Source: Bdellovibrionales bacterium
Lineage (GTDB): Bacteria > Bdellovibrionota > Bdellovibrionia > Bdellovibrionales > UBA1609
NCBI GenBank assembly: GCA_022842925.1
Contig: JALHOQ010000012.1
Span: forward strand, 1 to 34,701
Reading direction: 5' to 3'
DNA: 34,701 nt
Of this stretch, positions 14,271 to 25,872 are shown piece by piece. The stretch's first letter is position 1; every line of letters starts with the position of its first letter. The notes below the pieces were generated by a model that was not told the origin of the DNA, made no database searches, and worked only from the letters and a program-made list of their open reading frames with translations. Both the position numbers and the translations under genes were made by a program.

Positions 14271-14792
14271 ATGAAACGGATCGCACTCACAACTGCCCTG
14301 ACCCTGGCCGCTTTGCTTAATGTGGCCTGTGACGATAAGAAAAAAGAAGCCACAATGCAGGAGAAGATCCATGCTTGTATGTGGGACTCATCGGGCAATT
14401 GCCAACGCGCGGCCGCCGCATATGCAGCGGCACCAGGGGTCTTACCCATTGCCAACCAAGTTTTGGCGCAGAATCCGGGCCTTCTAAATGGTGGGGGTGG
14501 AACAACTCCCGTGGTACTCCCGCCGGGAACCGGTACCAACGTAGGAACTGGAACTGCGATCCGCACCGCGAGCGCCGATGACGCCGCTATTCGCGCCATG
14601 GCCGCCAAAGTCAACGCCGCGATCAAAGCCGACAGCAACAATCCGAATTCCATTCACTACGATCCGCCGCAACAGGTGCGCGCTCCCGCATCCGTTAGTG
14701 CCGCCGATATCAAGCCTGCCGCGAGCGCCCCACCGGGTGCCACGCTGAACTTTGACGCTTACACGGGCGATTCCCCCGACGGCGTTCGTTAA
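14271..14792 (+). CDS. Small Ala-rich lipoprotein of unknown function
   Basis: This 173-residue protein begins with a lipoprotein-like signal (TLAALLNVAC, Cys20 followed by Asp-Asp) and a very good ribosome site (GAGGAG, 7 nt before the ATG). The Asp-Asp after the Cys would, by the E. coli rule, favour retention at the inner membrane, though sorting rules differ between lineages. There are two further Cys in HACMWDSSGNCQ, then an Ala/Pro/Gly-rich, probably disordered remainder. No family is recognised. Its stop overlaps the convergent selO gene by 4 nt. Confidence 0.75.
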   Translation: MKRIALTTALTLAALLNVACDDKKKEATMQEKIHACMWDSSGNCQRAAAAYAAAPGVLPIANQVLAQNPGLLNGGGGTTPVVLPPGTGTNVGTGTAIRTASADDAAIRAMAAKVNAAIKADSNNPNSIHYDPPQQVRAPASVSAADIKPAASAPPGATLNFDAYTGDSPDGVR

Positions 14793-16336
14793 GAACTACA
14801 AGAGAGAGTCGAACTTCCCGGTTGGGTCTTGGCCCAGTCGGGGCGCTTTTCGGCCAGGTACTGGTACTTCGGATTTTCTGTGTACGGGTCCTTCAGCGCC
14901 GCCATCAGTTCGTTTAAAGGGCCTAAATCCCCCTGTTCCGCTTTTTGAATGACGTTAAACAAAATGTAGTTGCGCGGAATTATCCATGGATTGTGATTCT
15001 CCATCATTTGCTTACGCGCCGGTTTCAGCACGTTCTCAAGTGCCAGGCGGTGTTCGTAGCGCTTGAGCCATTCGCGAATCTGACCCTCGCTTTCGGGATC
15101 GGGAGTTTCATAGAGGGCGGGGGAAATGTTCTCCCTCAAATCGCCCCCACGACTGAGCGCACGAAAGAAGAGAGTCATGTCGGTCGGGGTGCTTTGTAAC
15201 GTTTGATCAAGGTCGCCTAGGAGCTTTAAGTCGGCGTCGCCTTTTAGATCCTTAAGTCCCAGTTTTCCAGCCATCATTTTTAAGAAAGACTTCTCATAGG
15301 TGTAAACGAACGCCTTAAGGCCTTCCTCGAGAGCGGCCGTATCGGGCGACAAAACCGTAAGTGCGTCGGCGAGCCGCTCGCAATTCCATAGCGCGATCGA
15401 AGCCTGCCGCCCGTAACAGTAGCGGCGGCCGGGAAGATCTGTGGTATTGGGAGTCCACTCCGGTTCGTAGCTGTCGAGAAATCCGAATGGACCGTAGTCG
15501 ATGGTCAGACCGAGGATCGACATATTGTCGGTGTTCATTACTCCATGCACGAATCCGACTCTCAGCCATTCCACCATGAGCCGCGCGGTGCGCTCGCAAA
15601 CCTCGCGAAACCAAACCGGGACCGCATCGGGTGAGTCGGCATCCATCTGGGGAAAGTGCCGGCGGATGGTCCAGTGAATGAGTTTTTTAAGAGTCTCTTT
15701 CTCGTCTTGCGCGGCGTGAATCTCGAAGTTGCCGAAGCGGAGAAAAGTGGGCGCCTGCCGGGAGGTGATGGCGCCGGGTTCAAACTTTGGGTTTCCGTCG
15801 TAGAACATATCGCGTAAGACTTGAGCGCCCGTGGCGACAAGAGAAAGGGAGCGCGTCGTGGGCACGCGCAAATAGTGCATGGCCTCACTAGCGACGAACT
15901 CTCGAATCGAGGACCGCAGCACAGCTTTGCCATCCCCACGGCGAGAATAAGGAGTTTGACCCGAGCCTTTGAGTTGAAATTCCCAAGTTTGGCCGTCGCG
16001 ATCGGCAAGTTCGCCCAGCGTAATTGCGCGACCATCACCAAGTTGCCCGGCCCACCGGCCGAACTGGTGGCCCCCGTAGCGAACGGCGTAGGGCGTGATG
16101 TTTTGAGGAAGACGATTGCCGGCGAGAATTTCGAGGTCAGGCCGAGGCGCGCCGGGACGCGGGGGAGAATCGCCGTTCAGCAAGGGATGGGAGAGTCCAA
16201 AGTGGTACGCTAAATCCTCCGACCAAGCCAACAGTCTCGGCTCCGGCACGGGTTCCGGATGTACTTTAGAGTAGACCTCGTGCTCGGGTATTTCCGCGAG
16301 AAACCGATTTGAAAACTGAGCTTCACTTAGGCGCAT
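14789..16336 (-). CDS. selO: Protein adenylyltransferase SelO (YdiU/UPF0061 family)
   Basis: This 515-residue protein matches SelO/YdiU throughout. It has YAVRYGGHQFGRWAGQLGDGRA, the nucleotide-binding GSGQTPYSRRGDGKAVLRSSIREF, MNTDNMSILG and the DYGPFGFLD metal-binding motif. SelO is a pseudokinase-fold enzyme that transfers AMP from ATP to Ser/Thr/Tyr of target proteins, with roles in redox stress. The C-terminus ends SCSS with a Cys where eukaryotic SelO has selenocysteine, the normal bacterial situation. It lies 50 nt downstream of the protease gene on the same strand and may be cotranscribed. Confidence 0.95.
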   Translation of the reverse strand: MRLSEAQFSNRFLAEIPEHEVYSKVHPEPVPEPRLLAWSEDLAYHFGLSHPLLNGDSPPRPGAPRPDLEILAGNRLPQNITPYAVRYGGHQFGRWAGQLGDGRAITLGELADRDGQTWEFQLKGSGQTPYSRRGDGKAVLRSSIREFVASEAMHYLRVPTTRSLSLVATGAQVLRDMFYDGNPKFEPGAITSRQAPTFLRFGNFEIHAAQDEKETLKKLIHWTIRRHFPQMDADSPDAVPVWFREVCERTARLMVEWLRVGFVHGVMNTDNMSILGLTIDYGPFGFLDSYEPEWTPNTTDLPGRRYCYGRQASIALWNCERLADALTVLSPDTAALEEGLKAFVYTYEKSFLKMMAGKLGLKDLKGDADLKLLGDLDQTLQSTPTDMTLFFRALSRGGDLRENISPALYETPDPESEGQIREWLKRYEHRLALENVLKPARKQMMENHNPWIIPRNYILFNVIQKAEQGDLGPLNELMAALKDPYTENPKYQYLAEKRPDWAKTQPGSSTLSCSS

Positions 16337-16386: not shown

Positions 16387-18414
16387 TCAATGTCCAAGAA
16401 CGTTCAACTGCCAGTTCCGCCATTGCGTCGTGCAGTCCGGGCGGCCCCCAATCAGTTTCAAAGTCCAGTTTCCGGCGCTGTTCTCGCCATAAAAGGCGTT
16501 GCTCACAAAGATATGGGAATCGATCTCGGTGTCGAGAAGTCCGCTGTTGATATTCATCAGAATGCTTTTCGTACCTGATGGCGATGTCAGTTCTACTCCC
16601 AGAGCACCAACGCACTGGGTGGCGCTCAGTCGGATCTCGATGGTTTCGACTTTGTAGTTTTCGCTGACTGTTAGAACGTTGCTGACGCCGGCGGGCGTGG
16701 CGGGGGGAACAGCTAGGTTATTTAAATTGCCGGAATCGTACTTCCAGGTGGCGCCCGTGTTCGTCTCTTTGAAAGTTCCGAGGGCCGAAGTGTAAGAGCG
16801 CGCCATGGCGACGGCCCGATCGACATTGACGCGACCGAATCCGTACCAGTTGTGAAACTTGAAGCCCGCGGCATTGGTGATCCAGTTCTGTTCATAAACG
16901 TGTCCAGTGAGATTGGCCGAGGCTTGCGGATGATTGATGGGCCCCTGGACGGCGTCGATCTGATCCGCGGTTACGGCCATGATATGGCGAACGTCCCGCC
17001 AGGTGAGGTTCGGATTGGCCGAGAGGATGAGGGCCACGGCGCCCGTTACGATCGGAGCGGCGCTAGAGGTGCCATTAAAGGTTGCGGTGTGAGTGAAACT
17101 CGCGTTCGGGGCAGCTCCAGCGTTGAAAAGGTTGCGAATGGCGGCAAAAGTTTTGTTGCCACGGGTGGCGCCGACGAAGTCGGTGGTCACGATCGCGGGC
17201 TCAAGGTGAACGGCTTGGTTTGTCGGAGAGGCGTTCCATCCGTACTCGCCGCCGGGAGCCGAGATCCAGAGGCTAGCGCCGGGTGTGGAATAGCTGGACG
17301 AGATTCCATCCGCGCTTAAGGCTCCGACTGTAATCAAATACGAAGACGAAGTGTCCTCCGTGAAATTGGCGTTGCCGAGGTAGGCGGACGTGGCGGGCGC
17401 GTTAGGATAGCAGTCGGTGAGCGGGCCGATGTATTCATTGCCCGCGGCCTTGACCATGACAGAGCCCTTGCCGCCGCGTCCGTTTTGCACGGTCAAGCGC
17501 CAGCGATCGCGAAGAGCCTGATCGTACTCGATCAACGCGCACTGCACATCGCCCCAGCTATAGTTGAAAACATCAAAATCGCCTTGATATTGGTCGACGT
17601 GGCCCGCGGTAAACAGCCCGGCGATGGCCAACTGCTCTTGCGCTTGCACAAAGAGAAATCCAGCGATTTTGGCCATCGGCGCGACGCCACGTCCGCCAGT
17701 CCCCAGCCATCCCGTCTCAGCGATAAGCCCGGCGACGCCAGTCCCATGCGAGAGCTGGGGTGCGGCGATGTCGGGGGTAGAACTGCCGTTCCAATTCAAA
17801 ACTTGAGCGAAGTTGTTCAGGTAGTTACGGCCAGGGATGACGTTGTCCTTTAAGCTCAGATGGCTTTCGAGAATTCCCGTGTCGGAGACCGCAACCTTGA
17901 TGCCCTGACCGAGAGTGCGGGAGCGAATCGTCTCCTCGAGATGGATATCATGTCCCGCGATTCCGCCGCTCGCGGCAAAGGCAGTTTGGCCGGTGTTCTT
18001 TAAGTGCCATTGATGCTGTTTAATTGGATCGCCAAGGACCGCAACTCGGTAAGGTCCGGACGCAATCCCGTTTACGGACAAAGAAAACTCGTTGGTGGTT
18101 TCGGGAGCCGGAGGAACGCCGGCGATTTCGCCGCTCGCGTTGTTGATACTCAGCCACGACGGAAGATTTTCAGCCGAAATCGCCGAGCCGCCTGAGGCCC
18201 CGGGCACCTTGAAGCGAAACTGCAGATCCTGAAAGGCTTGAATGTTTCCGTTCATGTCAGCGACGCCGTATTCATTGGTTAAACTGACGCGTGGGTTTGG
18301 TGTGCCAATTGAACTCGAGTCCTGGCTCCCGGCTTTAAGGGCCTTGAATCCGTTCTTGTTACAAGCGGCAAGCGTAGACATCAACAGGAGAAGAAGAGCC
18401 GTGCGCAGAATCAT
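16387..18414 (-). CDS. Subtilisin/kexin-like serine protease lipoprotein with P domain
   Basis: This 675-residue protein has a canonical lipobox (LAAC, Cys18). An Ig-like putative domain (about 60-127) ends in LPSWLSINNASGEIAGVPP. An S8 peptidase domain then begins at QWHLKNTGQ. The triad is Asp178 (VSDTG), His223 (SHGTGVAG) and Ser450 (GTSSAAP), with oxyanion Asn325 (AAGN). The C-terminal part (about 545-675) is a P/proprotein-convertase beta-sandwich ending WTLKLIGG through WQLNVLGH. It should be tethered to the envelope and act extracytoplasmically. Unusually, no propeptide lies between the lipobox and catalytic domain; the gene just upstream seems to encode one. AAAGG sits 10 nt before the ATG. 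Confidence 0.93.
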   Translation of the reverse strand: MILRTALLLLLMSTLAACNKNGFKALKAGSQDSSSIGTPNPRVSLTNEYGVADMNGNIQAFQDLQFRFKVPGASGGSAISAENLPSWLSINNASGEIAGVPPAPETTNEFSLSVNGIASGPYRVAVLGDPIKQHQWHLKNTGQTAFAASGGIAGHDIHLEETIRSRTLGQGIKVAVSDTGILESHLSLKDNVIPGRNYLNNFAQVLNWNGSSTPDIAAPQLSHGTGVAGLIAETGWLGTGGRGVAPMAKIAGFLFVQAQEQLAIAGLFTAGHVDQYQGDFDVFNYSWGDVQCALIEYDQALRDRWRLTVQNGRGGKGSVMVKAAGNEYIGPLTDCYPNAPATSAYLGNANFTEDTSSSYLITVGALSADGISSSYSTPGASLWISAPGGEYGWNASPTNQAVHLEPAIVTTDFVGATRGNKTFAAIRNLFNAGAAPNASFTHTATFNGTSSAAPIVTGAVALILSANPNLTWRDVRHIMAVTADQIDAVQGPINHPQASANLTGHVYEQNWITNAAGFKFHNWYGFGRVNVDRAVAMARSYTSALGTFKETNTGATWKYDSGNLNNLAVPPATPAGVSNVLTVSENYKVETIEIRLSATQCVGALGVELTSPSGTKSILMNINSGLLDTEIDSHIFVSNAFYGENSAGNWTLKLIGGRPDCTTQWRNWQLNVLGH

Positions 18415-18417
18415 CGT

Positions 18418-19113
18418 CTACAACCTTTTTTTCGAGTTTACGATTTCCAGATTTACGGTTTCAACAGCGTCATCTTGTTTCAGTATTTCCACGATTTGGG
18501 CGAGCGAGGTGTCTTCGGTGGTGGAGTAGTAGGCGAGGCGCAGGTCGTCGTCGATGTATTTCAAGGTCAGTTTATAACTGTTGGCCAGGTCGAGAGCTAA
18601 GGCGGCCTCTTTGAGTCGTACGATAATGGTGCCGGTCACGATCCCAAGCATTCCGTTAGATTTCTTGGCTACGACAAGAAGGCTTTCGTCGTCCGCCGTT
18701 CCCGGCGGTCGGCTGCTGGCAAAAATGACGTAGCCCAATTTTTCCGACACCTTGTGGCCCATGTCGGGGACATAGCGGGCGGCGGGGACGGCGCGAAGGC
18801 TTAGGAGTTCAAAGCGACCATCGGCCACGCTGATTCCGCCCTTGGGTCCACCCACTCGATAGCGTGAGATAAAGTCGCTCTGGCGATCGGCACCGGCTTG
18901 AGCCGATTCGGTAGGCTCTGGTAGACGGATTCGGGCGCGGCTGGGCTGCGGGCGGGGCAGGACTTGATCCAGCTTGCGCGGAACTCCCGCGGGCGCGCGA
19001 GGAGCCGGGGAATTATTTATGGTTTCCTTGGACTGAAAGGCCGGCCAAAGCCAAAAGGACAAGGCAAGCAGTAAGCCTGCGACGGCCGCAAATGTGTAAA
19101 CGCGTTTCGACAC
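18418..19113 (-). CDS. Membrane-anchored protein with subtilase pro-domain-like C-terminus
   Basis: The likely start is a GTG at 19113 (GGTGGGG 8 nt upstream), giving 231 residues. An N-terminal transmembrane or signal segment (VYTFAAVAGLLLALSFWLW) is followed by a Pro/Arg-rich linker and a globular middle part. The C-terminal 65-70 residues (GTIIVRLKEAAL, then LANSYKLTLKYIDDDLRLAYY, then LAQIVEILKQDDAVETVNLEIV) follow the pattern of I9/fervidolysin-type subtilase pro-domains. In those, a VxxK/R strand, an A..LA..Y helix-strand and DpxVexvepd-like ending are typical. The protein ends in KKRL. The protease start follows after three bases. I infer that it is the protease's intramolecular chaperone/inhibitor, supplied in trans. 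The assignment is from pattern only. Confidence 0.65.
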   Translation of the reverse strand: MSKRVYTFAAVAGLLLALSFWLWPAFQSKETINNSPAPRAPAGVPRKLDQVLPRPQPSRARIRLPEPTESAQAGADRQSDFISRYRVGGPKGGISVADGRFELLSLRAVPAARYVPDMGHKVSEKLGYVIFASSRPPGTADDESLLVVAKKSNGMLGIVTGTIIVRLKEAALALDLANSYKLTLKYIDDDLRLAYYSTTEDTSLAQIVEILKQDDAVETVNLEIVNSKKRL

Positions 19114-19155
19114 GAGTGATACCCCACCACAAATCGTCCGAAGCACGTCCCGCTA

Positions 19156-19614: not shown

Positions 19615-20490
19615 ATGCTCGCCAAAGAACTTAAAAGTGATCCTCGGTGTCCGCGCTGTCCGAACGGCGGAATTCTTGTCCGGCATGGCCGCTTTTACAG
19701 AAAATCCGAACGGAAGTGGATCCGACGTTGGCGCTGCAATTCATGTCTGAAAACGATTTCGCGGGCAACTCATGAACTCGAATTCGGCCAAAAGAAACGG
19801 CAATTCAACTATGCGATCTATTTTCTTCTGTGCTCGGGCGTTTCACAAAGACGCCTGAGTCTCGCCTTGAAACTTAACCGAAAAACCATTGCTCGAAAGC
19901 TCAAGTTTCTAGCCATTAAATGCAGACTTAGACAAAATCGCTTCTGGCTTAAATACTTGGAGGCTCCGATTGAACGAGTGCAGTTCGACGAAATGGAAAC
20001 AAGTGAGCATACGAAACTAAAACCTCTGAGTATTGCCCTGGCTGTTTGCGAAAAATCGAGAAAGATTTTAAACTTCCAAGTCGCTTCGATGCCTGCCAGA
20101 GGACATTTGGCCAGCCTCTCCCGGCAAAAATACGGCCCGAGACCGGATGAAAGAGCCGAGGGTTTGAACCGATTGTTTGATAATCTGTCTCCCGTCCTAG
20201 CCGAACAAGCTCATTTAAAGTCCGATCAGAATCCACGCTATCCCGCGTGGACGAAGGGGACTAGCTGGCAGCATTCGACAATCAAAGGGAGCCGCGGCGC
20301 TAATACAGGACAGGGTGAACTCAAGAAGGTTGCTTTCGATCCCTTATTCTCGCTCAACCACACCTGCGCCATGATCAGAGCCAATGTGAACCGAATGTTT
20401 CGGAAAACCTGGTGCACCACGAAAAAAGCTGAAGCTCTGACCGACCATCTTTGGCTTTATATGGACTTTCACAATCGGATCCTCACTTAG
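19615..20490 (+). CDS. DDE-type transposase-like protein with N-terminal zinc ribbon
   Basis: This 291-residue protein begins with a zinc ribbon (CPRC at 12-15, CNSC at 41-44). A helix-turn-helix region follows (SGVSQRRLSLALKLNRKTIARKL). The catalytic domain has VQFDEMET (Asp125), then KSDQNPRYP (Asp204), GQGELKK (Glu235) and HTCAMIRANVNRMFRKTWCTTK. This resembles IS1/IS1595-like transposases, but the third catalytic residue is not certain: Glu235 or the Asn-His at 248-249. Similar FDEMET proteins are, from memory, common in Bdellovibrio relatives. The frame is intact and lies between matched inverted repeats, so the element could be active. Confidence 0.8.
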   Translation: MLAKELKSDPRCPRCPNGGILVRHGRFYRKSERKWIRRWRCNSCLKTISRATHELEFGQKKRQFNYAIYFLLCSGVSQRRLSLALKLNRKTIARKLKFLAIKCRLRQNRFWLKYLEAPIERVQFDEMETSEHTKLKPLSIALAVCEKSRKILNFQVASMPARGHLASLSRQKYGPRPDERAEGLNRLFDNLSPVLAEQAHLKSDQNPRYPAWTKGTSWQHSTIKGSRGANTGQGELKKVAFDPLFSLNHTCAMIRANVNRMFRKTWCTTKKAEALTDHLWLYMDFHNRILT

Positions 20491-20517: not shown

Positions 20518-22068
20518 CTATCTCTTTGGTGCGCTCGACTTGCCAACAGGCAAGTCGGCCAGTTTATGGAGTTTATGTTCGAGGCGGGATAGTTCGGACA
20601 AGAGAATGGAGGCTCGATCATAAGCCTCTATTCCAATCGTCCCCCACGGCCATCTGCCCGCGGCATCCCGAAGTTCCAGGCGACGCCATTCTTCCCCGTG
20701 CTTAAACTCCACGTCGGAGTTCAAAACCTGCGTCAGTCGCTTTGCCCGGCGGAGTTCACCTCCGGCGCGGCGGAGGAGCCGTTCAAATTTGCCGGCCAGA
20801 TCTTCAGCCGTGAGTTCTTTTTCGGCTTCTTCATCCGCATCTTCATCTTTGTCTTTAGATTCGAGCTCTTCTGGTTCCACATAGTGGCGAAAAAGTTTTG
20901 CGCCATAAGCGAGCAGAGATCGGATCGAAGTGATTTGCTCAATTCGCAAACCATGATTCTGCAAGAATATGGCGAAGCCGGCCTTCATAACGGATGGATC
21001 GAGCGGCTCATAAAAAATCTGTTCGAATTCTTCGGCCCCTAGGGAGCGGTAGAGGGCCTGCACCATATCGATAAAATTTCCGGGCCGAAACGGTCCGATC
21101 GGATGGAGCTCGCTTTGGCGTATATCGCTGGACCCGAAGTCCACGCTGTAAAAGCACAGCTGCCGGTGTCCGGCTTTCAATGAAACATTATAGCGGGGAT
21201 TCAGACGTTTGATTTCATCGGTTTCGCGCAAGGCGGCTTCAAGTGGCGAACCGCAAACTTCTACCTGTAGGTCCCAGGTCTGCGCCAGCATTTCCAATTT
21301 GCGTTTCTCGCGGCCCTTGACGCCTCGAAAGTAACTGTTCACCCGGTCTCGTAAGGAGGTCGCTTTGCCGACATAGAGCACCTCGCCGTTTTTCGCCAAC
21401 ATACGATAGATGCCAGGCTGGTCGGGAAGGCCAAGTCGCTGCGCGGTTGAAATCCGGTAGGAGTAGCCCCGCGGTTTTTTTTCGATGGGTTGAGCGAGAA
21501 AATCCCTTAGGTCTTCGACCGAGGTCACTCCTCGCTTCGTTAACTCATCACACGCTCCACGCCAAATCACCTGAGTCGCCTTAACGAATTCTCCCGAGCG
21601 GTTGGGCCCCAGCATCGGATGGCCAAAGAAGCCAGCCACGGCGCGGATATTTTGACTCGGAAGCATGGGATAAAGACGGCGAATGATCTGATGGGTGCAC
21701 AAAATTGGAAAAGGGAGTTTTTCGAGAAGCTGTTCGAGAAACGGGGTTTCGAATTGAGCGTAGTGAATCAGCGCGGCGTCGACCTCCGGCCCCGCCTGCT
21801 GTAGCCACGGCTTAAAAACACCGGCGCACCAACTCTCTGGGGTCGGCTGCCCTTCCAGATCCTGCTCGGTGTACCCGGTGATCTCCGTCACCTTTCGCGA
21901 CAAGCGGTGCTCTCCCGGCAGAGAAAAACGCTGACTCGATACCGGAGCCAGGTCGCAGTTGAGAGCCGAGGCGAGCGACCAGCCGAAATCAATCAGGCGC
22001 CCGGTCGGTGGTCGAATGCCGGTGGTTTGTGCGTCAAAAAAGAAAAACGGCTGTTCACGGAGATCCAT
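20518..22068 (-). CDS. Degenerate DEDDh exonuclease domain fused to GIY-YIG (UvrC/Cho-like) nuclease
   Basis: From the ATG at 22068 (GGGAG upstream) the product is 516 residues. Residues 8-165 align with DnaQ/epsilon-like exonucleases, but catalytic positions differ. DxE reads Asp12-Ala-Gln14, HNxxFD reads HYAQFE (102-107), and HxxxxD reads Asn156..Phe161. Residues 217-297 form an apparently intact GIY-YIG domain: PGIYRML, VLYVGKATSLRDRVNSYF, with metal-binding Glu282 in LRETDEIK and NPRYN. An acidic linker and helical C-terminal region follow. GIY-YIG enzymes such as UvrC and Cho incise damaged DNA. The last 13 or so residues (ADLPVGKSSAPKR) come from the insertion element's right end. Its start overlaps the helicase end by 14 nt. 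Confidence 0.88.
   Translation of the reverse strand: MDLREQPFFFFDAQTTGIRPPTGRLIDFGWSLASALNCDLAPVSSQRFSLPGEHRLSRKVTEITGYTEQDLEGQPTPESWCAGVFKPWLQQAGPEVDAALIHYAQFETPFLEQLLEKLPFPILCTHQIIRRLYPMLPSQNIRAVAGFFGHPMLGPNRSGEFVKATQVIWRGACDELTKRGVTSVEDLRDFLAQPIEKKPRGYSYRISTAQRLGLPDQPGIYRMLAKNGEVLYVGKATSLRDRVNSYFRGVKGREKRKLEMLAQTWDLQVEVCGSPLEAALRETDEIKRLNPRYNVSLKAGHRQLCFYSVDFGSSDIRQSELHPIGPFRPGNFIDMVQALYRSLGAEEFEQIFYEPLDPSVMKAGFAIFLQNHGLRIEQITSIRSLLAYGAKLFRHYVEPEELESKDKDEDADEEAEKELTAEDLAGKFERLLRRAGGELRRAKRLTQVLNSDVEFKHGEEWRRLELRDAAGRWPWGTIGIEAYDRASILLSELSRLEHKLHKLADLPVGKSSAPKR
20529..20565 (-). repeat. Right terminal inverted repeat, inside a coding region
   Basis: This copy pairs with 19540-19576. It includes the same perfect hairpin and lies 38 nt after the transposase stop. 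On the minus strand it encodes part of the C-terminus of the exonuclease/GIY-YIG protein, whose stop codon (20518-20520) lies just inside the element. Confidence 0.85.
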
Positions 22069-24439
22069 CAGTCTCCCAAAACTTCTGCACATCGGCGAGG
22101 ATCTGCTTGGACACCAAGGGCTCGGTCCCTTCGCTCAGCCAGTCGCCCGGCATAGCTTTAAGGTAATTGGCCGAAAGAAAGCGGCGGTCCATCAACACGA
22201 TCAGTCCGCGATCGCGACTGGAGCGGATCACACGTCCCGCGCTCTGTACCACTCGGGTCATGGCCGGGAAAGTATAGGCATAGTCAAACCCCTCGCCCCC
22301 TTGCGCATCAAAGTATTGGCGCAGACATTCCCGCTCAAAATCGAAGGCCGGAAGAGCCGGTCCCACGATCAGCGCGCCGATCAGCATGTCGCCGGGGTAG
22401 TCGACTCCTTCGGAAAAGACTCCGCCTTGAACGGCGAAGATCAATGTCGGGGTTTCCGGGTCTTGCAGAGCTTCTAAGTACTCTTCGATCTGCTTGCGCC
22501 GCATTTCCCGCTCTTGCTTCAGAACGCGGAACTCCGGCGCATCGATCTGCGAGGCCACCGCATTCAGAAAATCGAAACTGGGAAAGAACACGAAATAGTT
22601 TCCCCGTTTCAGTCGCACCACCTTTTCGATAATTTCGCGGATTTTGCCATAGTTGGAACCGCGATCACGCATTTTTGTGGACACCTGCGGGATGATCAGG
22701 AGTTTTCTGTTCTCTGGCGGAAACGGCGAGTGAAATTCGGCCGTAGAAGCCGACTGCGGGTCAAGCCCCAGGGTTTTTAAGTGAAAATCGAAGGGCTTAA
22801 CCGTAGCGGAGAAGGCGACCACGTTGGCGAATTCCTCATAGCGTTCGGCTAGATGTTTTGAGGCGTCGCAGCAGGTGATGCGCAAGCGGCTTTGTTCGCC
22901 GAGCGGAGTTACGGTCAAAAGAAATTCTGGACCGGTGCTCTGAGCAGCGGACACGAAGTCCGAAATCAGGTTGCAGAACTTCAAAACCGGATCGCCCGTC
23001 TTCAAACCCAAATCGGATTCGAGGTAACCGCGAAGCAGCTCCTGCGCTTGGGCCTCGAGATATGAGAGATCGAGCTCGCTCATTTCGAGCTTCGCCGGCC
23101 GAGTATTTTCACCCGCCAGGGCTCGCACAGTGCCGGCGCAGGCATTGCGTAGGGCCTTTATTTTGTCCCATAGGGGCTCTGGCAAGTAGGTCGCGCCTTC
23201 CATCAGTCGAGTCATCTCGCCGAGCGAGAGCTCGGCCGAATAGTAGTCATTGGCGCGAGCGGCGAGGTTATGGGCTTCGTCGATCACCAGATTGCCTTTT
23301 CCAGATTTGCCGTAGCCATTGAAGCCGATCCGACCGAGAATATTTCGCGGCGAAAAGACATAGTTGTAGTCGCAGATCACCACATCGGCTCGCGGCACGC
23401 ACTCCAGCTGCAGTTCAAAGGGGCAGACCTGATACTGGTGTCCGAATTTGCGAAAAGTGGATTCCTTCAATCGTTTCTTCTTTAAAATCTTTCCGGTCAC
23501 ATCATGGGTTTGCAATTTGGTGTAGTAATCCCGCGCATATTCGCAGTAGGTGGGGCTGCAGAAGACTTCGTCTTTCAGACACATCTTGCTTTTGGCATGA
23601 ACGGTGATCGACTTGATTTTAAGGCCCGTGGCCTGCAGGCGTTCCACCGCGTCTTCGGCGACGCCGTGCTGAGAGTTTTTAGCGGTAACATAGATCGTTT
23701 TCTGCCCACGGGCGAGGGACTCTTCGAGCGACGGATAAAGGACGCCAATGGTTTTGCCTAAACCGGTTGGAGCTTGCAAAAGGACGCGAGTCTGATCGCC
23801 CAGCCGTTCCTTCACATGGGCCATCAGTTCGCGTTGGCCGGGGCGCGGATCGGCGAATGGAAAGGTCATGGACGGGCTGGACTTTCTGCGCTTCGCTTTC
23901 AGCTTGGTAAAGGCGTCTTCGATATCGCCAATCTCTTTGAGGCGACGCTTCAGCCATTCCTCATAGCTTGTCCGTTCGAGCGGAACAGGTAGTGGGCTCA
24001 CGCGCAAAGTGCGCGCGCAAACGACCAAAAGCACCAGCTCCGGTTCGCTGTCGGTGGCCAGCCAATGCAAGTATCCGTACGTGCGCAGCTGCAAGATAAA
24101 GGGATGTAAAGGGTCCGACTTTAAGCGCTCGAGCAAGCCCTCGGGCGCGTACGTGGATTTGATTTCTTCGATCGTCACCGGCGGGCCAAAGCTGAGTCCG
24201 TCCATTCGGCCGCTAACTGTGATTTTGTAGTGGTCTTGTTCGAAGGAATGGGCCACCCATTTTTCGGCGACGTAGGCCCCGCCCTGGTTGAGCCGCTCGG
24301 CCTGAATATTCTGATGAATCTGCGTTCCCACCATGGGGAGAGCGCCGAATCCCGATTCCGATTCAATATGGCCGAGGCGGGGCGACGGTAAGGCGAAATC
24401 GGTGATGGAGAGCTGGAGCGTGCGTTTAGTCGCAGTCAT
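22055..24439 (-). CDS. XPD/DinG-type helicase with N-terminal Cas4-like nuclease domain
   Basis: From the ATG at 24439 the product is 794 residues; the longer open frame upstream lies over the sulfatase gene. An N-terminal PD-(D/E)xK domain shows GRMD (Asp80), EEIK (Glu92, Lys94) and QLRTY (Gln117 to Tyr121), as in Cas4/RecB-like nucleases. The SF2 helicase core follows with Walker A APTGLGKT (223-230) and DEAH (387-390). Four cysteines (287, 294, 299, 339 in VCPFEL) are placed like the XPD Fe-S cluster. Motif VI QSAGRVIRSSRDRG is near the C-terminus. It should be a 5'-3' helicase-nuclease acting on DNA. The start overlaps the sulfatase stop (ATGA), indicating coupled translation. Confidence 0.92.
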   Translation of the reverse strand: MTATKRTLQLSITDFALPSPRLGHIESESGFGALPMVGTQIHQNIQAERLNQGGAYVAEKWVAHSFEQDHYKITVSGRMDGLSFGPPVTIEEIKSTYAPEGLLERLKSDPLHPFILQLRTYGYLHWLATDSEPELVLLVVCARTLRVSPLPVPLERTSYEEWLKRRLKEIGDIEDAFTKLKAKRRKSSPSMTFPFADPRPGQRELMAHVKERLGDQTRVLLQAPTGLGKTIGVLYPSLEESLARGQKTIYVTAKNSQHGVAEDAVERLQATGLKIKSITVHAKSKMCLKDEVFCSPTYCEYARDYYTKLQTHDVTGKILKKKRLKESTFRKFGHQYQVCPFELQLECVPRADVVICDYNYVFSPRNILGRIGFNGYGKSGKGNLVIDEAHNLAARANDYYSAELSLGEMTRLMEGATYLPEPLWDKIKALRNACAGTVRALAGENTRPAKLEMSELDLSYLEAQAQELLRGYLESDLGLKTGDPVLKFCNLISDFVSAAQSTGPEFLLTVTPLGEQSRLRITCCDASKHLAERYEEFANVVAFSATVKPFDFHLKTLGLDPQSASTAEFHSPFPPENRKLLIIPQVSTKMRDRGSNYGKIREIIEKVVRLKRGNYFVFFPSFDFLNAVASQIDAPEFRVLKQEREMRRKQIEEYLEALQDPETPTLIFAVQGGVFSEGVDYPGDMLIGALIVGPALPAFDFERECLRQYFDAQGGEGFDYAYTFPAMTRVVQSAGRVIRSSRDRGLIVLMDRRFLSANYLKAMPGDWLSEGTEPLVSKQILADVQKFWETDGSP

Positions 24440-25872
24440 AACGTCTGCTCCCTTTCCCAGCGGCTCCGGGCCTCTCGCATATGTTCGCGCGCGCGGCGAA
24501 TGGGCGGCCACCAGGAGTTCACTAAGTCGTCTTGCTCCTGGGGGTCCAAGCGCAGATGGTAGAACTCGTCTTGGCCGCGGGCATTGCGAAGCAATTTCCA
24601 TTCGCCGTCGGTGGCGAAAGCGCTGCCGAGCGCGAAGCCGAAGGCGAAAGGGGCGGGGCCTTGATTCAGATCGCGCCCCTGCGACTGCTCCGGTATCGGA
24701 TACCCAAGCGTCGACAGCAGTGTGGGTAAAAGATCCACCAGGCTCACGAGACCGTCATAGGTCTTGCCCTCACTCATGTCGGGATGACGGATCATCATGG
24801 GAATGCGAGCCGTGTGCTCGTAGAAAGTGGAATGGCTGGCGCGCCCGTGTTCAAAAATCTCTTCGCCATGGTCGCTGACCAAAACCACGAGGGTGCGTTC
24901 CGTTTTCTCGAGCCGGTCTAAGAGCGCGCCGAGCTGGCGGTCGAGTTCCTCGACGGCGACGGCGTAGCCGCGCTTGAGCAGATTGGCCTGCTCCTCGCGT
25001 TCCGTTTTTTCTGTAAGCCGTTCGCGGGCGCCTTCCATCAGGCGGAGTTGGAATTGACCGAGGGAATGAAGAAACACATCAAAGCGATCCGCATCATGCA
25101 CGGGTGGCATGGGGAGTGGCGCCTGCTGGAGTCGCTTGTAATATAACCGTTGCAGTCGATCGCGATCGAACATGGCCTGGAGACGACTGTCCTCGCCCGC
25201 AGTGAAATACGGCAAGTGCGTGATGTAGGAGTGCAGAAAGTGGAAGAAGGGAACGCCCGTTGCGGCTAACTCTCGGCCATAGTTTTCCACCTCAAATTCT
25301 TGACCTTCAATGAAGCGGCCTGGTCGCGCGAACAAGGTCGGCGATTGTTTCTCAAAACCTCGACTGAAACCGAGTTCGAGACTGAGGTGCTTAAGCGAGA
25401 GCGGACCGAACCAATGCGTGCGGTAGCCCACTCCCCGTAAAATTTCGGCCATAGTTTTGTAGCTCGGCGAGAGCGCTGGCGTACCGGTGTCGGTGCGTTC
25501 AAATCCCGTGATATGAATTTCGCTGCCCGTAACATGATGTCGATTCGGATAAAGGGAGGTGAAGAGCGTCATGTGGCTGGGCGTAGTGTAAAAGGCATTG
25601 GTGTAGGCCCGAGTCAGCCGGACGGACTTCGCGGCCAACCGGGCCAAGTTGGGAGTTGCGCCACTGGGATTCCCATCTATCGCGTCCGCGCGAAGAGTGT
25701 CGGCGGAGATCAGCACGAGGTTGCACCCGGGGCAGGGCGGAAGATTCAGTCCCTCCGTGACGGGTTGAACTCGTGGCAAGTTGAAATGGCGGAGCTGCCA
25801 TCCGAGTTCGCGATGGGTCAACGCAAGGAGGGCCACCGTGACCGCGATGAAAATCGATCCCATCCACTTCAC
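24436..25872 (-). CDS. Membrane-anchored sulfatase-family (alkaline phosphatase superfamily) enzyme
   Basis: The start is a GTG at 25872, chosen because AAGGAG sits 7 nt upstream and the GTGA overlaps the upstream stop. The product is 478 residues with an N-terminal membrane helix (MGSIFIAVTVALLALTH). Motifs are VLISADTLRAD (metal), FYTTPSHMTLFTSLYPNRH with Thr at the nucleophile position instead of Cys/Ser of true sulfatases, FLHSYITHLPYF and VLVSDHGEEIFEHG. A Thr nucleophile suggests phosphodiester or phosphonate chemistry rather than formylglycine-dependent sulfatase action, although Thr-PSH proteins are common under the name sulfatase. It faces the periplasm. Substrate is unknown. Confidence 0.88.
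   Translation of the reverse strand: MKWMGSIFIAVTVALLALTHRELGWQLRHFNLPRVQPVTEGLNLPPCPGCNLVLISADTLRADAIDGNPSGATPNLARLAAKSVRLTRAYTNAFYTTPSHMTLFTSLYPNRHHVTGSEIHITGFERTDTGTPALSPSYKTMAEILRGVGYRTHWFGPLSLKHLSLELGFSRGFEKQSPTLFARPGRFIEGQEFEVENYGRELAATGVPFFHFLHSYITHLPYFTAGEDSRLQAMFDRDRLQRLYYKRLQQAPLPMPPVHDADRFDVFLHSLGQFQLRLMEGARERLTEKTEREEQANLLKRGYAVAVEELDRQLGALLDRLEKTERTLVVLVSDHGEEIFEHGRASHSTFYEHTARIPMMIRHPDMSEGKTYDGLVSLVDLLPTLLSTLGYPIPEQSQGRDLNQGPAPFAFGFALGSAFATDGEWKLLRNARGQDEFYHLRLDPQEQDDLVNSWWPPIRRAREHMREARSRWEREQTL

Follow-up and report, generated by a model that had tools for sequence, protein, structure and literature searches.

A trans-encoded subtilase pro-domain with a predicted membrane anchor: a Bdellovibrionota variant of the ASP/ORF2 protease-chaperone pair

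Two adjacent genes of a Bdellovibrionales bacterium from the predatory Bdellovibrio phylum, found in a window of 34,701 nucleotides (the whole stretch of DNA analysed), encode a lineage-specific variant of the known ASP/ORF2 enzyme-chaperone pair rather than a new kind of system. The pro-domain of a subtilase is a textbook intramolecular chaperone; here, as judged from a family profile and a predicted fold, it is indeed encoded in trans, by the gene next to that of a lipoprotein subtilase. The pair very probably consists of an ASP/ORF2-type protease and its chaperone, the latter being anchored in the inner membrane, where it would both fold and silence the subtilase. The original prediction regarded a trans pro-domain as unusual. 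The trans pro-domain is real but not new, ASP/ORF2 being a published precedent (PMC5638518), and the novelty relative to ASP/ORF2 is a chaperone, predicted to be membrane-tethered, for a lipoprotein protease.

The gene pair and its products

Both genes are located on the minus strand, three bases apart, as had been predicted. The ORF2-like chaperone gene (18418..19113; 231 aa, GTG start) lies upstream of the gene of the ASP-like lipoprotein subtilase (16387..18414; 675 aa) and shares its frame (...AAAAGGTTG TAG ACG ATG), and reading through the TAG would give a single 908-residue protein spanning chaperone and protease. The chaperone start at 19113 is a choice, a second in-frame GTG being present at 19146. 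A SelO protein adenylyltransferase gene (14789-16336, minus strand) is located directly downstream of the protease gene. On the other side, a 291-aa ORF divergent from the chaperone operon (19615-20490, plus strand) appears by eye to be zinc-ribbon transposase-like and had no match in the Pfam scan. Beyond it, a minus-strand gene (20518-22092) overlaps the gene of a DinG/XPD-like helicase (22055-24601); its 524-aa product has a GIY-YIG nuclease domain and, before this, a region that by eye looks exonuclease-like.

The upstream protein had been described as membrane-anchored, and it is predicted to be held in the membrane by an N-terminal hydrophobic helix. This signal anchor, or transmembrane helix, covers residues 3-26 (19036..19107, minus strand, as for all features of the pair), with helices 3-21 and 23-26 in the model, and according to a simple heuristic the hydrophobic segment is not followed by a signal-peptidase-I-like motif. 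The next part, residues 27-98 (18820..19035), is a disordered Pro-rich linker with a pLDDT of 55-74, nine prolines within residues 36-67 and a helix predicted with moderate confidence at 69-85. The folded part of the AlphaFold model, which was built with 41 homologues, begins at about residue 99. It comprises a beta-rich subdomain (residues 99-155, 18649..18819; strands 101-110, 119-125, 128-133 and 145-150, mostly of high pLDDT) and then the pro-domain of ORF_2_N type with the order beta-alpha-beta-beta-alpha-beta (residues 156-231, 18421..18648), its strands and helices being modelled at 156-225 with a pLDDT of about 90-97.

The C-terminal region had been called a subtilase pro-domain by pattern, and this assignment is borne out both by the profile and by the fold. 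The Pfam family PF18492 (ORF_2_N) matches residues 148-230 with 43.3 bits against a curated cut-off of 29.2 (E 5e-11), and a weak Fervidolysin_NPro-like match covers the same residues. The structural comparison with known pro-domains proposed in the original prediction was made by a Foldseek search of the PDB with the chaperone model. It placed ORF2 of Aeromonas sobria (3wqb_B) first, followed by the furin-bound PC1/3 pro-domain, the EpiP pro-protein and, lower down, subtilisin propeptides. The probability was 1.00, and ORF2 and the furin-bound pro-domains reached target-normalised TM scores of 0.7-0.8; the E-values are modest (the best is 7e-3, and none reaches 0.001), which can be expected of a domain this short (about 75 residues) inside a longer query. 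Searching PDB sequences with the chaperone, either by itself or as a profile, gave no convincing match to ORF2 (2mk4 at E 0.9); the relationship to ORF2 was recognised only from the Pfam match and the structural search.

The dibasic KKRL end noted earlier is present in the sequence (...NSKKRL; 18421..18432), and this tail is the proposed occupant of the active-site cleft. Of the 41 homologues, 34 have a lysine or arginine in one of the two final positions, most often at position -2, where it occurs in 63% of homologues against a background of 10.7%. The final residue is mostly non-basic, being Leu here, with N or F common.

The protease has the features that were expected of a lipoprotein with a catalytic triad. 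Its signal peptide (18361..18414) contains the lipobox LAAC with Cys18, and its Peptidase_S8 catalytic domain (residues 169-527, 16834..17910; PF00082, E 1e-38) carries D178 (17881-17883), H223 (17746-17748) and S450 (17065-17067); the cysteine and the triad are invariant in 33 aligned relatives. A proprotein-convertase P-domain follows at residues 599-671 (16402..16620; PF01483, P_proprotein, E 2e-12). The top PDB match of the protease is ASP (3hjr/3wqb), with E 1e-62 for the single sequence and 4e-132 for the profile. The NCBIfam mycosin and dentilisin matches were discarded, being far below their cut-offs.

The suggestion that an Ig-like domain rather than a pro-domain occupies the space between the lipobox and the catalytic domain also agrees with the domain search. 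Just a weak He_PIG match was found there (residues 59-112, 18079..18240; E 8e-5, 23.5 bits, slightly below the cut-off of 24), and no cis pro-domain was recognised in the protease by Pfam, a result that weighs little by itself, since most of the 10 other subtilases scanned in this genome also lack a significant one. The Ig-like domain is optional: many relatives do not have it, and their catalytic region begins about 15-20 residues past the lipobox, which leaves no room for a cis pro-domain. The same genome gives 21 S8 matches (about 20 subtilases), and a clear Pfam pro-domain was seen in one of the 10 scanned (L100; Fervidolysin_NPro-like, with a C-terminal PilZ domain).

Conservation of the pair and gene order

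The conservation of the two genes side by side, proposed earlier as a check, was surveyed in both directions. The chaperone profile, searched across 291 Bdellovibrionota genomes, gave 102 matches in 90 of them. An ASP-like protease adjoins 86 of these matches, the chaperone being upstream in 72 cases, downstream in 13 and on the opposite strand in one; of the remaining 16, several are at contig ends or beside proteases missed by the 1e-70 cut-off or the 1.5-kb limit. Autonomous protease homologues without a partner gene had been named as an argument against the prediction. The 79 ASP-like loci picked by the protease alone comprise 69 with a separate adjacent ORF2-like gene, four with an ORF2-like domain in cis, N-terminal to the catalytic domain (L162, L172, L174, L177), and six in which the protease is at or near a contig end and one flank is missing (L108, L112, L125, L139, L140, L169). 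The four cis-fused proteins are gammaproteobacterial MAG proteases with approximately 160-180 residues between the cis domain and the catalytic region.

Forty further loci were added from the Bdellovibrionota survey, 33 of them containing proteases seemingly without a partner, and most of the added loci revealed a divergent partner once the profile was iterated. The iterated profile matched 150 of 3,777 ORFs, and all but six of these (four fusions and two contig ends) have a separate protease ORF no more than 400 bases away; since selected loci were used for the iteration, the argument is one of specificity and not of E-values. The main exceptions among the added loci form a distant group (L206-L211) of ASP-like proteases with no ORF2 match, where an ORF of 150-210 aa lies directly downstream of each protease or slightly overlaps it. 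Several of these ORFs have a signal-peptide-like start and a YWYDG/YxYDG-like motif, and they possibly represent a further type of trans partner. Two PF18492 matches in genomes G250 and G281 (L087, L089) fall within open frames of 531 aa, have no protease in their vicinity and are presumably false positives. The genome under study also contains a second, diverged pair of an ORF2-like protein and a lipoprotein subtilase (G000:C82:46-2729, L046), its chaperone gene being cut by the contig end.

A FastTree phylogeny of 147 proteases was labelled by arrangement (upstream, downstream, opposite strand, cis), unlabelled rows being left out. The labels require at least about 11 changes on this tree, which is arbitrarily rooted and weak at many of its deep branches, and the partner persists throughout. 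Gene order is an unstable feature of the family, both orders and cis fusions occurring on one protease tree. The nearest relatives of the window's protease all have the chaperone upstream.

Relation to ASP/ORF2 and to other chaperones

The ASP protease of Aeromonas sobria matures only with ORF2, which is encoded next to it and inhibits it with an IC50 of 84 nM, and homologous operons are known in Vibrio, Shewanella, Chromobacterium and Pseudoalteromonas (PMC5638518). The ORF2 genes at the loci of the latter four genera found in the present study are matched by PF18492. Like ASP/ORF2 (PDB 3hjr, 3wqb, 2mk4), the pair combines a kexin-like S8 catalytic domain and a P-domain, with an intact triad and no cis pro-domain, with a chaperone of pro-domain fold (PF18492) that is supplied by the adjacent gene and has a basic residue in its C-terminal tail.

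The differences concern both partners. The chaperone of the window has a predicted signal anchor and a long Pro-rich linker, its gene is upstream, whereas in Aeromonas it is directly downstream of the protease gene, and its tail ends in KKRL, whereas ORF2 ends in QPK with a C-terminal Lys. The protease differs from ASP in being a lipoprotein, in its N-terminal Ig-like domain and in a P-domain region that lacks the occluding loop with Arg566, an insertion in 3hjr that is absent from the Bdellovibrionota profile alignment. Arg566 of ASP is suggested to contact ORF2; in our judgement, this loop belongs to ASP in particular and does not characterise the family at large.

The same differences can be followed, as a trend, across the lineage. 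By a simple heuristic, and with some starts misassigned, the hydrophobic segment is not followed by a signal-peptidase-I-like motif in about 73% of Bdellovibrionota chaperones, whereas about 78% of those elsewhere possess one, and the median distance from this segment to the start of the profile match is 104 residues in Bdellovibrionota versus 54 elsewhere. The proteases of Bdellovibrionota are lipoproteins in about 93% of cases by heuristic, and in 33 of 33 aligned relatives. The tendency in this phylum, as far as sequences indicate, is towards a chaperone that is mostly membrane-tethered, with a long linker, a lipoprotein partner and a gene often placed upstream. No paper on PF18492 was found in the literature searched, which mostly excludes subscription papers, and nothing relevant was present among the matches listed for Bdellovibrio; a tethered form may already have been described in other papers.

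The predicted architecture also resembles that of the lipase-specific foldases Lif/LipH, which have a transmembrane helix, an unstructured linker, a periplasmic steric-chaperone domain and a gene beside that of the client (PMC13381987, PMC7046727, PMC3352829). The helix and the linker of Lif/LipH prevent co-secretion and may permit repeated use, and the same source remarks on foldases of 'type II proteases' (PMC13381987). Membrane-associated dedicated chaperones of exported enzymes have been described for T2SS substrates of Acinetobacter as well (PMC4713064), and they are likened here by description only. The client of Lif is a lipase secreted by T2SS, whereas the client here is a lipidated protease. 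The likeness to Lif is a functional analogy only: the Pfam matches of the chaperone are limited to ORF_2_N and Fervidolysin_NPro-like, with no match to the Lif chaperone domain. The Lif chaperone fold is unrelated to the pro-domain fold. The latter is shared with the cis pro-domains of S8 proteases (Inhibitor_I9, Fervidolysin_NPro-like, furin/PC) and with stand-alone I9 inhibitors; in ordinary subtilases the pro-domain is in cis, while here it is in trans and, by prediction, tethered to the membrane.

Proposed mechanism and alternative explanations

In the proposed mechanism, both proteins would be exported via Sec, the uncleaved N-terminal helix would keep the ORF2-like protein in the inner membrane, and the long flexible linker would present the pro-domain in the periplasm, where it would dock on the subtilase and template its folding. 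The basic tail KKRL would sit in the substrate cleft and keep the new enzyme inactive; a kexin-like specificity and the occupation of the cleft by KKR are suggested by homology and by the basic tails. The lipidated protease would then be let go and would probably reach the outer membrane by the Lol pathway, and the tether would leave the chaperone behind, possibly for further use. According to the E. coli rule, a lipobox +2 residue other than Asp leads to Lol export, and the Asn at +2 of the protease lipobox suggests this route. The Lol sorting of the protease and the membrane retention of the chaperone are both rule-of-thumb predictions. As a stand-in for the complex, a fusion reading through the TAG was modelled, purely as a modelling device that implies no claim of read-through; with a shallow alignment, its catalytic domain came out poorly (pLDDT mostly 27-70), and the placement of the chaperone tail had low confidence. 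Two larger mixed alignments for this model were set aside because chaperone rows were placed on the protease.

It could be supposed that the upstream protein acts chiefly as a permanent inhibitor tethered to the membrane, an I9-like self-protection factor guarding the inner membrane and the periplasm, and that the protease folds alone. Pro-domain folds serve as stand-alone inhibitors too, a tether would hold the inhibition at the inner membrane, the basic tail is compatible with the active site, and ORF2 itself inhibits ASP (IC50 84 nM, PMC5638518). However, the near-obligatory one-to-one pairing of the genes and the proteases without a cis pro-domain favour a folding role, one that includes inhibition, as does the published need of ASP for ORF2 to mature (PMC5638518), and a purely protective protein appears unlikely. 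A dedicated foldase that is also a transient inhibitor is likewise a better-supported role than the regulatory 'switch' originally envisaged.

The common frame, with only TAG ACG between the ORFs and 908 residues upon read-through, together with the existence of cis-fused relatives, might point to a single pro-protease, with its pro-domain in cis, that is interrupted by an in-frame TAG as a result of an assembly error, a recent mutation or read-through. The downstream ORF, however, starts independently, with a signal peptide and a conserved lipobox of its own, and in most homologous pairs the genes either overlap in different frames (-4, -14) or stand in reversed order and cannot be one protein, so that a split gene was rejected as highly improbable. 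Even less credible is a generic ferredoxin-like fold unrelated to the protease and adjacent to it by operonic coincidence. The order beta-alpha-beta-beta-alpha-beta is common, and RRM and AsnC-like domains are also present in the Foldseek list, but PF18492 matches above its curated cut-off, ORF2 is the first Foldseek match, cis fusions occur among relatives, and the pairing survives many changes of gene order; the family match and the pairing contradict a chance resemblance.

The upstream protein is most likely a membrane-tethered foldase, topologically comparable to Lif by analogy. A broader proposal, that in Bdellovibrionota a soluble exported pro-domain has been turned into a reusable foldase tethered to the inner membrane and serving lipid-anchored proteases, is possible and is advanced here tentatively. 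If it is true, activation would be spatial: the protease would acquire its fold and be kept silent at the inner membrane, and would become active only once Lol sorts it away. With cis, trans-upstream, trans-downstream and opposite-strand forms all on one tree, the fission or fusion of an intramolecular chaperone could then be traced directly.

The present analysis extends ASP/ORF2 from the few genera of the literature to many Bdellovibrionota genomes, and it suggests that co-expression with the partner is necessary to study these proteases at all. One protease family in which the pro-domain occurs in cis, as a soluble partner or as a partner with a predicted membrane tether constitutes a natural series, which lets one ask how a chaperone comes to be a protein of its own and what prevents self-destruction once the chaperone no longer accompanies the enzyme.
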